From Prochlorococcus marinus XMU1411 (GTDB taxonomy: Bacteria; Cyanobacteriota; Cyanobacteriia; PCC-6307; Cyanobiaceae): a stretch of DNA of 64,000 bases. This document shows, in pieces, positions 29,991 to 50,439 of the stretch (positions are counted from its first letter, which is position 1; each line of letters starts with the position of its first letter). A program made the translations under genes and the position numbers. Where the stretch lies: assembly GCF_017696075.1 (NCBI RefSeq), contig NZ_JAAORI010000003.1:124001-188000 (forward strand), read 5' to 3'. The notes under the pieces were generated by a model. That model searched no databases, was not told the origin of the DNA, and saw only the letters and a program-made list of their open reading frames with translations.

Positions 29991-31037
29991 CTAATCTGTA
30001 CTAAATCTACATGATGAAAGTTGATTCTTAATAGTTTGATGATTTAAGTTTTTACCAATTAATACGATCTTGTTAGATTTTTCTTTTGTCCATTCTTCAT
30101 CATCAAGAGAAAATCGTTTTCCAGATAGGTGAAAAATGTGTTTTCTATCACTTTCCATAAACCATAATATTCCTTTCGCCCTAAATACATTTTGTGAGAT
30201 TTGATTATCTAAGAAATATTGAAACTTCCTTAAGGAGAATGGTTCAAATGTCTCATAAGAAACTGATGTGAAACCCTCAATATTATTATTCAAATCGTGA
30301 GAATGGGAAGAGTGATCGTGAGAATGGGAAGAGTGATCGTGAGAATGGGAAGAGTGATCGTGAGAATGGGAAGAGTGATCGTGAGAATTGTCTTCTACAT
30401 CTTGTTTATCCTTATCGAATTTAAAAGTATCTGTTTCAAATAGACCTACACTCATTATTGTTTGTAATCCAACTTCACTATTGGTTGATCTCAATATCCT
30501 TGGTTCTTTTTTTATTTTATTTATAAATGTTTCGACTTTCTTTAATTGTTCTTCGTTGACTAAATCACATTTATTTAGGAGAAGAATATCTCCATATAAA
30601 ATCTGAGAATAGGCGACACTTGTATTTTTAATTTCAAAATCAAAATTTTCTCCATCAATAACAGTGATGATTGAATCTAATCTTACTTTTTCTCGAAGAT
30701 CTCCAGCTGCAAAAGTCATGGCTACTGGCAATGGATCTGCTAGCCCAGTAGTCTCAACAATTAAATAGTCTATTTTTTCAGATCTTTCTAAAACTTTGGA
30801 TACTGTATTTAATAATTCACCATTAATAGAGCAACATATACATCCATTATTTAATTCGATCATATCTTCTGAGCCTTCTATTATTAAATCATTATCTATT
30901 CCAATTTCTCCAAATTCATTAACTAAAACAGCTGTTTTAATACCAATTTGATTTTTTAAAATATAATTAAGAAGTGTGGTTTTACCAGATCCTAAGAAGC
31001 CACTAATTATCGTAACTGGCAACAATTTTTTAGACAT
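29991..31037 (-). CDS. CobW/COG0523 metallochaperone GTPase with His-rich repeat
   Basis: This 348-residue G3E GTPase has Walker A GFLGSGKT (13-20), the metal motif NGCICCS (C66, C68, C69), NKCD for guanine specificity, and a C-terminal CobW_C domain (FRAKGILWF). Between the domains is a His-Asp-Ser stretch made of four perfect copies of HDHSSHS plus HD (about residues 217-250). Such loops bind zinc, nickel or cobalt in COG0523 chaperones. It is upstream of the iron-type permease on the same strand. The metal cannot be told from sequence. Confidence 0.88.
   Translation of the reverse strand: MSKKLLPVTIISGFLGSGKTTLLNYILKNQIGIKTAVLVNEFGEIGIDNDLIIEGSEDMIELNNGCICCSINGELLNTVSKVLERSEKIDYLIVETTGLADPLPVAMTFAAGDLREKVRLDSIITVIDGENFDFEIKNTSVAYSQILYGDILLLNKCDLVNEEQLKKVETFINKIKKEPRILRSTNSEVGLQTIMSVGLFETDTFKFDKDKQDVEDNSHDHSSHSHDHSSHSHDHSSHSHDHSSHSHDLNNNIEGFTSVSYETFEPFSLRKFQYFLDNQISQNVFRAKGILWFMESDRKHIFHLSGKRFSLDDEEWTKEKSNKIVLIGKNLNHQTIKNQLSSCRFSTD
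30301..30384. repeat. Four perfect 21-bp tandem repeats inside the CobW gene
   Basis: The unit GAATGGGAAGAGTGATCGTG plus A is repeated exactly four times (starts 30301, 30322, 30343, 30364), with partial copies on both sides. It is in frame (7 codons, HDHSSHS on the minus strand). Identity at synonymous positions points to recent expansion or slippage rather than old divergence, so copy number may vary between strains. Confidence 0.95.
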
Positions 31038-33468: not shown

Positions 33469-33531
33469 AACATTACTTTTAAATAAATAGTTTGAGTGTG
33501 AGGATGTAAGATAAACAAAAATTATTTCTTG

Positions 33532-34119
33532 ATGGCAAACCTTAATCAACCCCCAAGTAGGATTACACCAAATTTATTGCACATATTAGATGCTTTTACT
33601 GATAGTTCAAATACGGTAGTTAACAGTATTGTTGAATTGAATTCAAATACAATAAATAAATATGAATTAATTACAGAAACAGGCCACTTAAAACTAGATA
33701 GGGTTGGTTATTCTTCACTTGCATATCCTTTCGCTTATGGATGTATACCAAGGACATGGGACGAAGATGGAGATCCACTTGATGTCGAGATTGTTGGCGT
33801 AACTGAACCATTAATACCTGGATCTATTGTGGAGGCAAGGATTATTGGGGTGATGAAATTTGATGATGGAGGAGAGGTCGATGATAAGGTAATAGCGGTT
33901 CTAGCAGATGATAAAAGAATGGACCATATCTCAAGTTTTGAAGACCTTGGAGAACATTGGTTAAAAGAAACAAAGTATTATTGGGAACATTACAAAGATC
34001 TAAAAAAACCTGGAACATGTACGGTTAATGGTTTTTTTGGAATAGAAGAAGCTGTTAGAGTAATTAAAGATTGCGAAAGTAGATATAAAAAAGAAATTGA
34101 TCCTAAATTAGTAAATTAA
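33532..34119 (+). CDS. ppa: Family I inorganic pyrophosphatase, catalytically complete copy
   Basis: 195 residues from the ATG at 33532 (a TTG one codon earlier is also possible). All standard active-site residues of family I can be placed: DGDPLD with three Asp (79, 81, 84), D112, D117 and K119 in FDDGGEVDDK, Arg in LDRV, Tyr in AYGCIP, and Y154-K155 in EHYKDL. It hydrolyses pyrophosphate to phosphate, pulling biosynthetic reactions forward. It abuts hemC tail to tail with no spacer. The second paralogue in this window is degenerate, so this copy is probably the working enzyme. Confidence 0.92.
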   Translation: MANLNQPPSRITPNLLHILDAFTDSSNTVVNSIVELNSNTINKYELITETGHLKLDRVGYSSLAYPFAYGCIPRTWDEDGDPLDVEIVGVTEPLIPGSIVEARIIGVMKFDDGGEVDDKVIAVLADDKRMDHISSFEDLGEHWLKETKYYWEHYKDLKKPGTCTVNGFFGIEEAVRVIKDCESRYKKEIDPKLVN

Positions 34120-48151: not shown

Positions 48152-48502
48152 ATGGAAAATATAGATTCCAATATTTCAAGTGAAGAGGAATTAGTAGGTA
48201 TTGATGAAGTTCAAAAATTCCTAAACAGATCTAGAGCTTCTGTCTACAGGTATACAAATACAGATTTAAGAAATCTAAACCCTAGCTTTAATCCGAGGAA
48301 ATTAAATCCTGAATTTAGAACTGATCAAAAAGACCCGTTAAAATTCCATCCTAATGAAGTTGCGAGATTTGCAAAAGATATTCTAAGAATTAAAGAAGTA
48401 ACTGTTGAGGTCTTTAATACACCGTCCTCTGCTGCTCAAAATATACTGGTACAAATATTAGACGAATTAAAATCTATTAGGACTTTACTAGAAAATAAGT
48501 AA
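48152..48502 (+). CDS. Small excisionase/MerR-like HTH protein, unknown
   Basis: The 116-residue protein has an N-terminal segment LVGIDEVQKFLNRSRASVYR (about 14-33), which reads as a winged-helix excisionase-type DNA-binding motif. A Pro/Asn-rich linker and a C-terminal amphipathic helix (ILVQILDELKSIRTLLENK) follow, which may dimerise. No partner recombinase is adjacent. ATG start. I do not recognise a named family; a regulator is more likely than a mobile-element excisionase because nothing mobile flanks it. Confidence 0.62.
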   Translation: MENIDSNISSEEELVGIDEVQKFLNRSRASVYRYTNTDLRNLNPSFNPRKLNPEFRTDQKDPLKFHPNEVARFAKDILRIKEVTVEVFNTPSSAAQNILVQILDELKSIRTLLENK

Positions 48503-48598: not shown

Positions 48599-48853
48599 TT
48601 GAGTTACACGAAATCAAAGCAGTTTATTCAAAGTAAATCAAGCGAAGAATCTTCTCTTGTTTCTGCTCGAAGTGATTTTGCAAGAGATGATGATGACCCC
48701 TTAAGTATAAGGAGTTTATCTATAACATCTTTAGGTATTATTTTTGCCTTTTTGACAATTTTATTACCTTCAATAAGCGTTTTAATTGGCAGACCTTTAA
48801 CTCAAGGAAACGAGATAATTCATAATCACGATTTTAAAAAAGATGGACCTTAG
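48599..48853 (+). CDS. Small single-helix membrane protein, unknown
   Basis: The 84-residue protein has a charged N-terminus (1-37, with RDDDDP), one membrane helix (about 41-63; SITSLGIIFAFLTILLPSIS) and a short His/Asn tail. The start is a TTG at 48599-48601; no ATG is in range. The last 11 bases overlap the start of the pyrophosphatase gene, suggesting translational coupling. No known domain. Confidence 0.58.
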   Translation: MSYTKSKQFIQSKSSEESSLVSARSDFARDDDDPLSIRSLSITSLGIIFAFLTILLPSISVLIGRPLTQGNEIIHNHDFKKDGP

Positions 48854-49397
48854 TTCAATACCTCCATCTCCAATGAAGGGAATTGTAAATATTGTTGTTG
48901 AAATACCTGCAGGGAGTAGGAATAAATACGAATATTGCTCTGATGCAGGAATAATGGCTTTAGACAGAGTATTGCATTCTTCAGTGAGGTACCCTTTTGA
49001 TTATGGTTTTATCCCAAACACCCTAGCTGATGATGGAGCTCCTCTTGATGCAATGGTGATAATGGACGAGCCTACTTTTGCTGGTTGTCTTATAAAAGCT
49101 AGACCTATTGGAGTTTTGGATATGCATGATTGTGGTGCTTATGATGGAAAACTTTTATGTGTGCCTATGGCGAATCCTAGGCAGGCTAATATATTGAGTA
49201 TTAATCAAATTGCCCCTAATCAGCTTGAGGATGTTGCTGAATTTTTTAGAACAAGTAAAGGACTTGATGGAAGAACAGTTCAAATAGATGGTTGGAGGGA
49301 TTTTGACGTGGTTGAAAGTTTATTGAAAAGTTGTATACCTTTAAAAAAGAAAAACTTTAAAGTACTTAAGAAATCAAAAATTAGTAAATTAAATTGA
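48843..49397 (+). CDS. ppa: Family I inorganic pyrophosphatase paralogue with altered active site
   Basis: The 184-residue protein has the cyanobacterial family I sequence (VVEIPAGSRNKYE, DYGFIPNTLADDG, HDCGAYDGKLLCVP). Two standard catalytic positions have changed. The metal triad D-x-D-x-x-D reads DGAPLD, with Ala66 for the middle Asp, and the C-terminal Tyr-Lys pair reads Ser138-Lys139. E20, K28, E30, R42, Y54, D64, D69, D96, D101 and K103 remain. Activity is expected to be low or absent. It lies between the small membrane protein and an ArsC-like gene, with overlaps on both sides. A structural or binding role is possible. Confidence 0.88.
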   Translation: MDLSSIPPSPMKGIVNIVVEIPAGSRNKYEYCSDAGIMALDRVLHSSVRYPFDYGFIPNTLADDGAPLDAMVIMDEPTFAGCLIKARPIGVLDMHDCGAYDGKLLCVPMANPRQANILSINQIAPNQLEDVAEFFRTSKGLDGRTVQIDGWRDFDVVESLLKSCIPLKKKNFKVLKKSKISKLN

Positions 49398-49750
49398 AAA
49401 AAATAATTTTTTATAGTTATTTAAAATGCTCTACTTGTCGAAAAGCTGCAAAGTGGCTTAAAAGCAAAGATTTAGAATTCCAGTTAATTGATATTGTAAA
49501 AGAACCACCACTTGTTAATTATTTAAATCTAGCCTTAGAACAATACCCCGAAGATAAGAAAAGGATTTTCAATACAAGAGGTAAAGTCTTTAAAGCTCTT
49601 AATCTTGATATTTATGGTTTATCAAGGGAAGAAATTATTCAACTTCTTTTAAGTGATGGAAAATTAATAAAAAGACCATTTTTGATTTACGAAGGAAAAA
49701 AAGTAATATTAGGTTTTAACGAAAGTGAATATGCCAAACAATTCTTATAA
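49394..49750 (+). CDS. ArsC/Spx-family thioredoxin-fold protein
   Basis: The 118-residue protein has a thioredoxin-like start KCSTCRKAAKWLKSKDLEFQ with a CxxC at the N-end of helix 1, then IDIVKEPP and IKRPFLIYEGKKVILGF, the usual ArsC/Spx cis-Pro region. Could be arsenate reductase-like or a redox regulator; the CSTC pair favours a redox role as in Spx/YffB. It starts with a TTG at 49394-49396 embedded in the ppa stop (4-base overlap). Confidence 0.83.
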   Translation: MKKIIFYSYLKCSTCRKAAKWLKSKDLEFQLIDIVKEPPLVNYLNLALEQYPEDKKRIFNTRGKVFKALNLDIYGLSREEIIQLLLSDGKLIKRPFLIYEGKKVILGFNESEYAKQFL

Positions 49751-49779: not shown

Positions 49780-50439
49780 ATGCCTATTTATATTAAAAGT
49801 TTTTTAAAAGAATGGGGTTTACTAATTCTATTAACTTTTTTTGTTTCTTCTTGTAGATCATTTTTCGCAGAACCACGTTATATTCCTTCTGGTTCAATGC
49901 TCCCAGAATTACAAATAAACGATAGGTTAATTATTGAAAAATTTTCACTAAGAAACTCTTTACCAAAAAGAGGAGATATCGTTGTTTTTAATTCACCTTA
50001 CTCTTTTGACGAAAAATTAATTTCATCAAGATCTAAGCCTTTACCCAAAAAAAGATATTGTTTTTTTATGAGTTTTCCTCCAATGTCTTTTATTCCTGGT
50101 TTGAGGGATCAAGCTTGCGATGCATATATTAAAAGAGTTGTGGCACTTCCAGGGGAAATTGTCAGTGTAAACAATAACGGTGAATTAATAATAAATAATA
50201 AATTGATTTCTGAACCCTATGTCTCTTATAAGTGCTCATTATCCCTCTTTAATAAATGTGGTGAATTTGAAAATATAAAAGTGCCAGAAGATCATTTTTT
50301 AGTTTTAGGTGATAATAGGGCAAATAGCTGGGATGGAAGATATTGGCCTGGAAGTAAATTTCTTCATAAAAAAGAGATAATTGGTAAAGCATATTTCAGA
50401 TTTTGGCCTCTTAGTCAAGTTGGCTTTTTCAGTAAATAA
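49780..50439 (+). CDS. lepB: Signal peptidase I
   Basis: The 219-residue protein has one N-terminal membrane helix (about 10-25). The catalytic Ser39 is in IPSGSMLPEL and the general-base Lys118 in YIKRVVALPGE. The C-terminal signature GDNRANSWDGRYWG-type motif is complete. It cleaves Sec and Tat signal peptides at the membrane surface; clients here should include petA, psaF and the cysteine-free Psb27. 29 bases after the ArsC-like gene on the same strand. Confidence 0.94.
   Translation: MPIYIKSFLKEWGLLILLTFFVSSCRSFFAEPRYIPSGSMLPELQINDRLIIEKFSLRNSLPKRGDIVVFNSPYSFDEKLISSRSKPLPKKRYCFFMSFPPMSFIPGLRDQACDAYIKRVVALPGEIVSVNNNGELIINNKLISEPYVSYKCSLSLFNKCGEFENIKVPEDHFLVLGDNRANSWDGRYWPGSKFLHKKEIIGKAYFRFWPLSQVGFFSK

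Follow-up and report, generated by a model that had tools for sequence, protein, structure and literature searches.

A family I pyrophosphatase without its signature aspartate is retained beside an intact second copy in Prochlorococcus and its relatives

Two pyrophosphatase genes and their surroundings

The window, a 64,000-nucleotide stretch of the Prochlorococcus marinus XMU1411 genome, carries two genes for family I soluble pyrophosphatases (PPases), here called ppaA (product P0001) and ppaB (product P0002). These genes, the codons of interest and the neighbours of ppaA are as follows:

48843..49397, + strand: ppaA, family I PPase judged to be of ancestral type, without the signature Asp (P0001; translation, PF00719, alignment)
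49038..49040, + strand: codon GCT, Ala66 (E. coli Asp67; sequence and alignment)
49254..49256, + strand: codon AGT, Ser138 (E. coli Tyr141; sequence and alignment)
33532..34119, + strand: ppaB, second family I PPase, intact (P0002; DGDPLDV from residue 79)
48152..48502, + strand: 116 aa ORF, conserved upstream neighbour in most family loci shown
48599..48853, + strand: small ORF of 84 aa with a TTG start and one hydrophobic stretch, overlapping the ppaA start by 11 bases
49394..49750, + strand: Spx/ArsC-like protein, overlapping the ppaA stop and a neighbour in many family loci
49780..50439, + strand: signal peptidase I (lepB-like), downstream of ppaA

The translated ppaA product (184 aa) contains DDGAPLDAM and EFFRTSKGL, with Ser138-Lys139 where P0002 has Tyr-Lys, and that of ppaB, for which the open reading frame list gives an alternative TTG start at 33529, contains EDGDPLDVE and EHYKDLKK. 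The original prediction had described such a pair, a DGAPLD copy carrying Ala66 and Ser138 and, some 15 kb off, a copy with DGDPLD and Tyr-Lys intact, and the sequence agrees on each of these points (15.3 kb between the two starts). Pairs of ppa genes about 15–25 kb apart were also seen in genomes G056, G010, G034, G298 and G268, and the pair in G024 is about 190 kb apart. Profile searches matched both products to PF00719 well above cut-off (157.7 bits for P0001; curated cut-off 23.5), and ppaA and ppaB were the only such matches in the whole genome (1.67 Mb, 6 contigs). Neither the membrane H+-PPase profile (PF03030) nor the DHHA2 profile, part of family II PPases (PF02833), matched anything in this genome. 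P0001 is 53–61% identical to PPases from other cyanobacteria in its class and 31–36% identical to second copies; by these identities it represents the ancestral type, as had been proposed. The 80 nearest named loci comprised 77 named Prochlorococcus and three named ‘uncultured Synechococcaceae’.

At most of the family loci shown, ppaA is preceded by proS and the 116 aa ORF and followed by the Spx/ArsC-like gene. The 116 aa ORF was present at 1 of 18 outgroup loci (L168) and was retained in 11 of the 12 ppaA-less genomes searched. The small ORF at 48599..48853 had no Pfam or NCBIfam match; several loci have, between ppaA and the 116 aa ORF, a short ORF with a single hydrophobic segment, and this ORF often overlaps the ppaA start. 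As an obligate partner of ppaA this ORF is a weakened candidate, because 9 of 10 readable ppaA-less loci retain a hydrophobic-stretch ORF at that place, recognised from position and hydropathy alone and lying within longer ORFs in L305 and L306; L303 had none, and in L311 the anchor motif was missing. Similar-looking small hydrophobic ORFs also occur upstream of outgroup ppa genes (L154, L157, L164–L166, L168 and L169). Elsewhere in the window, a 348 aa protein encoded at 29991–31037 (− strand), which we take to be COG0523-like, carries repeated HDHSSHS motifs.

Active-site residues across the family

Residues were numbered by the E. coli PPase sequence, which is identical to PDB 4um4. Alignment of both copies to this reference, suggested earlier as a check, equates Ala66 with Asp67 and Ser138 with Tyr141 and leaves ppaB intact. 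We take the other ligand positions of the E. coli enzyme to be E20, K29, E31, R43, Y51, Y55, D65, D70, D97, D102, K104 and K142, and all 12 are intact in P0001. Outside the family, 86 genomes gave a match, once each except for a second weak piece in G452, and residues were read in 18 of them; all 14 tested positions were intact in these 18 outgroup cyanobacteria and in all 41 second copies (23 genera). The Cys that ppaA has at E98 means little, since that position is not Glu in any of the same 18 outgroup sequences and 41 second copies.

Across the family, the signature Asp was absent from all 201 distinct ancestral-type (A) proteins, a count that leaves out genus g49. Residue 67 was Ala, Ser or Cys in 199 of them, Gly in one and a gap in one; tallied over 197 family A proteins, it was Ala in 160, Ser in 36 and Cys in one. 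The family signature D[SGDN]D[PE][LIVMF]D[LIVMGAC] (PMC2916918, where the available text prints the last letter as G) is not matched by P0001, which reads DGAPLDA, nor by any of the 201 (g49 left out), and is matched by 18/18 outgroup A proteins, 41/41 second (B) copies and the g49 A protein. This comparison across picocyanobacteria rules out a sequencing error or a single-genome oddity, as the change at Asp67 runs across the whole family.

Within the window's genus (g1), 90 distinct A proteins had Ala (89) or Ser (1) at residue 67 and Ser at residue 141 (90/90), and the other 12 ligand positions were kept in every one. Among 98 distinct A proteins from other Cyanobiaceae, residue 67 was Ala in 71, Ser in 26 and Cys in one; Tyr141 was kept in 96 (2 His), D97 in 93, E31 in 91 and Lys142 in 83 (14 Arg, 1 Gln). 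The nine A proteins of g24, g32 and g44 all carry Ser67 and Arg142, with His (8) or Asn (1) at position 141. Among the proteins read, the change of Tyr141 to Ser was seen solely in the window's genus; as the alignments have it, this change and the family-wide loss of Asp67 are separate losses. Ligands were not conserved significantly more strongly than other outgroup-invariant positions (10/12 kept versus 44/76; Fisher p 0.12).

The one draft genome of g49 (G049, locus L206) has both an A gene and a second copy, and its A protein, the sole family A copy read with DGDPLD, keeps Asp67 and Tyr141 and has Thr in place of Arg43. Neither proS, the 116 aa ORF nor the Spx/ArsC-like gene was detected adjoining this copy. 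A quick tree placed g49 outside the Asp-less clade. On a quick tree of the A sequences, residue 67 needed at least 11 changes, one of them from Asp to another residue and about ten being switches among Ala, Ser and Cys; this tree later proved not to be the best-scoring, and one with g49 beside the other family A proteins without g24, g32 and g44 scored better. A careful tree of 33 sequences again placed g49 outside the Asp-less clade (support 92/86), with five changes at residue 67, one from Asp to another residue, and PurA and PriA left the placement open. The second copy was likely acquired first and Asp67 lost later, an order that fits both the two genes of g49 and its outside placement at that support; Asp67 may have been lost either once or twice.

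Distribution, selection and modelled fold

We searched 400 family genomes with P0001 and sorted the matches by E-value by hand. A match was obtained in 380 genomes: 272 had both copies, 93 the second copy only and 15 the ancestral type only, with no match in the other 20. The second copy stood alone in 56 of the genomes that were at least 90% complete, spread over 11 genera. None of the 15 ancestral-type-only genomes was a single contig, and three were at least 90% complete (G227, G300 and G396); none of these three yielded a second copy when searched with P0002, which likely reflects a gap in drafts. All 68 sampled genomes of the window's small-genome genus have the A-type gene (in G300 as a partial match only). 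Some A copies look broken, with an early stop after 49 codons in L196 and split reading frames in L212 and L213. The idea of viral copies was rejected: no viral contig matched the exact DNA pattern for DGAPLDAMVIM, and tblastn of P0001 in phage records matched 10 records, all below 60% identity.

The ppaA gene is under strong purifying selection, with dN/dS (Nei–Gojobori, ratio of means) between 0.047 and 0.110 across all eight tested groups of intact A genes: 0.073 over 44 sequences of the window's genus, and 0.078 (g5), 0.058 (g34), 0.053 (g56), 0.067 (g24), 0.047 (g11), 0.110 (g10) and 0.047 (g39) elsewhere. In the same five genomes of the window's genus, A and B gave 0.056 and 0.059, respectively. 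The second copy is the more constrained in g5, g34 and g24, where B gave 0.042, 0.036 (one pair) and 0.033, versus 0.058–0.078 for A. Together, dN/dS and the presence of the gene in every sampled genome of the window's genus rule out its decay there.

One sub-lineage of g5 departs much further from the ancestral active site:

L208:1511-2017, L209:1516-2022, L210:1569-2075, L211:1526-2011: A genes of the g5 sub-lineage (residue alignment)

These four genes come from incomplete draft genomes (53–87% complete). In alignment, their products show E20V, K29L or K29Q, Y51H, Y55H, D70A, D97E, D102 replaced by Ile, Val or Leu, K104T, Y141I and K142R, with Ser (2), Gly (1) or a gap (1) at residue 67; Arg43 is kept. 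Their dN/dS is 0.108 (six pairs), and their C-terminal half (ADPRQ..I.SIRQIAP.QLEE.AEFFRT) is common to other A proteins. A search of their genomes with P0002 found a full-length second copy in G303 and G309, a piece in G347 (ancestral-type-only by the P0001 search) and none in G329. AlphaFold2 models of P0001 and L209 reached mean pLDDT values of 88.0 and 87.9, respectively. The best PDB matches of the P0001 model were family I PPases (TM-score 0.85 to 3q5v_B), and the L209 model also matches solved family I PPases; P0001 is thus predicted to have the family I fold.

Candidate roles and comparison with known systems

In family I PPases the middle Asp of the signature activates water, and its two neighbouring Asps hold metals. 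PPase is reportedly essential in E. coli. The original prediction had the middle Asp coordinating the catalytic metals, and published accounts divide on this: the accessible part of a structure paper lists Asp68 among residues coordinating cations or PPi (PMC6770254), and that of a review (PMC11210485) associates the nucleophilic water with yeast Asp117, each being, by motif spacing, the residue lost in ppaA. The same portion of PMC6770254 disputes the activated-water mechanism and proposes a phosphorylated lysine intermediate, so that loss of the Asp may leave activity. It also describes an Acinetobacter baumannii PPase inactivated by Lys143Arg and not by Lys149Arg; by numbering, Lys143 would be the Lys142 site here. 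Ligand retention in A proteins is incomplete in this respect, as Lys142 is Arg in g24, g32 and g44 and in 14 of the 98 proteins from other Cyanobiaceae.

Across the family, then, the signature Asp is missing from the inherited PPase and a second, intact family I enzyme is present; ppaA combines loss of a catalytic residue with retention by selection, as would a pseudoenzyme. We tentatively favour the reading, which may well prove wrong, that ppaA encodes a conserved pseudo-pyrophosphatase, a PPi-Mg binding or regulatory protein, and that the second copy hydrolyses PPi. The inherited PPase lost the Asp, the position thereafter being almost always Ala, Ser or Cys, and retained most of its other PPi and metal ligands. 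Under this reading, its product would bind Mg-PPi with very slow or absent hydrolysis and have a binding or regulatory function that depends on PPi, for instance as a sensor of PPi level, and ppaB would carry out hydrolysis. The regulatory part draws on the pattern of residues, as removing the Asp and keeping the rest is a way to build a holder of Mg-PPi. Takeover of hydrolysis by the other copy, as predicted, appears likely since the second copy is intact in 41/41 sequences and stands alone in 93 of 400 family genomes. Confidence is lowered by the variation at Lys142 and by the dN/dS of the second copies, both of which count against this reading. In the g5 sub-lineage, where the binding site is erased too, any role would have to rest on the folded protein itself. 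Of the original proposal of a retained pseudoenzyme with a replacement enzyme, the ancestral type, the purifying selection and the likely takeover stand; the two substitutions it had joined are separate losses. A more specific form, in which early removal of the Asp trapped the PPase as a sensor that holds Mg-PPi and reports the biosynthetic PPi level to a partner, is speculative and rather unlikely.

Three other explanations were weighed. The ppaA product could still be an enzyme, one that hydrolyses PPi slowly or splits another phosphoanhydride and in which the metals alone activate water; nearly all other ligands are retained and the activated-water model is questioned (PMC6770254, in the part available), but the Asp is present in every outgroup sequence and second copy read, Tyr141 is also lost in the window's genus, Lys142 varies elsewhere and the erased g5 sub-lineage would be incapable of such chemistry, which makes this doubtful. 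That same sub-lineage is what most recommends a scaffold or interaction protein needing the fold and not ligand binding: with E20, K29, Y51, Y55, D70, D97, D102, K104 and Y141 all replaced, its genes still show constraint, the L209 fold is still modelled with confidence values close to those of P0001 and the C-terminal half is shared with other A proteins. Yet ligand residues are retained in most lineages and the erased lineage consists of four incomplete drafts, and we consider a pure scaffold improbable. It is highly improbable that ppaA is redundant and in the course of being lost, as the second-copy-only genomes and the interrupted copies L196, L212 and L213 might suggest, given low dN/dS in all eight groups and a gene present throughout the window's genus.

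The family, to which Prochlorococcus belongs, has an inherited PPase altered at a key residue and still under strong selection, and it probably relies on a second. Natural intermediates (the Asp-bearing g49 copy, single and double losses and the erased site) make PPi sensing by a disabled PPase directly testable.

From its gene neighbours, PMM0494 of MED4 is presumably the intact copy. The mRNA of this ppa gene is bound by the sRNAs Yfr1 and Yfr10, according to the section available of PMC6778093. In the literature searched, we recognised no report of an inactive picocyanobacterial PPase, and Gomez-Garcia et al. 2007 may bear on the subject. Two Cyanorak clusters, CK_00000642 and CK_00000654, are among four putative pyrophosphatase clusters found in most picocyanobacterial genomes (PMC7522525), and an excerpt of PMC9361551 gives CK_00000642 as the ppa common to picocyanobacteria; the two are probably the ppaA and ppaB pair, and the passage of PMC7522525 on these clusters makes no mention of a lost residue. 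Compared with family I soluble PPases (PF00719) such as E. coli Ppa, ppaA is alike in sequence family, modelled fold and most ligand positions and differs in lacking the signature Asp and, in the window's genus, Tyr141. Its closest relatives outside the family, the single-copy PPases of other cyanobacteria (53–61% identity), have all tested ligands, unlike ppaA (18/18 read). Bacterial pseudo-orthocaspases, as described in the available part of PMC6426788, are likewise conserved proteins without catalytic residues; they belong to another enzyme class, whereas ppaA has an intact paralogue-type enzyme nearby.
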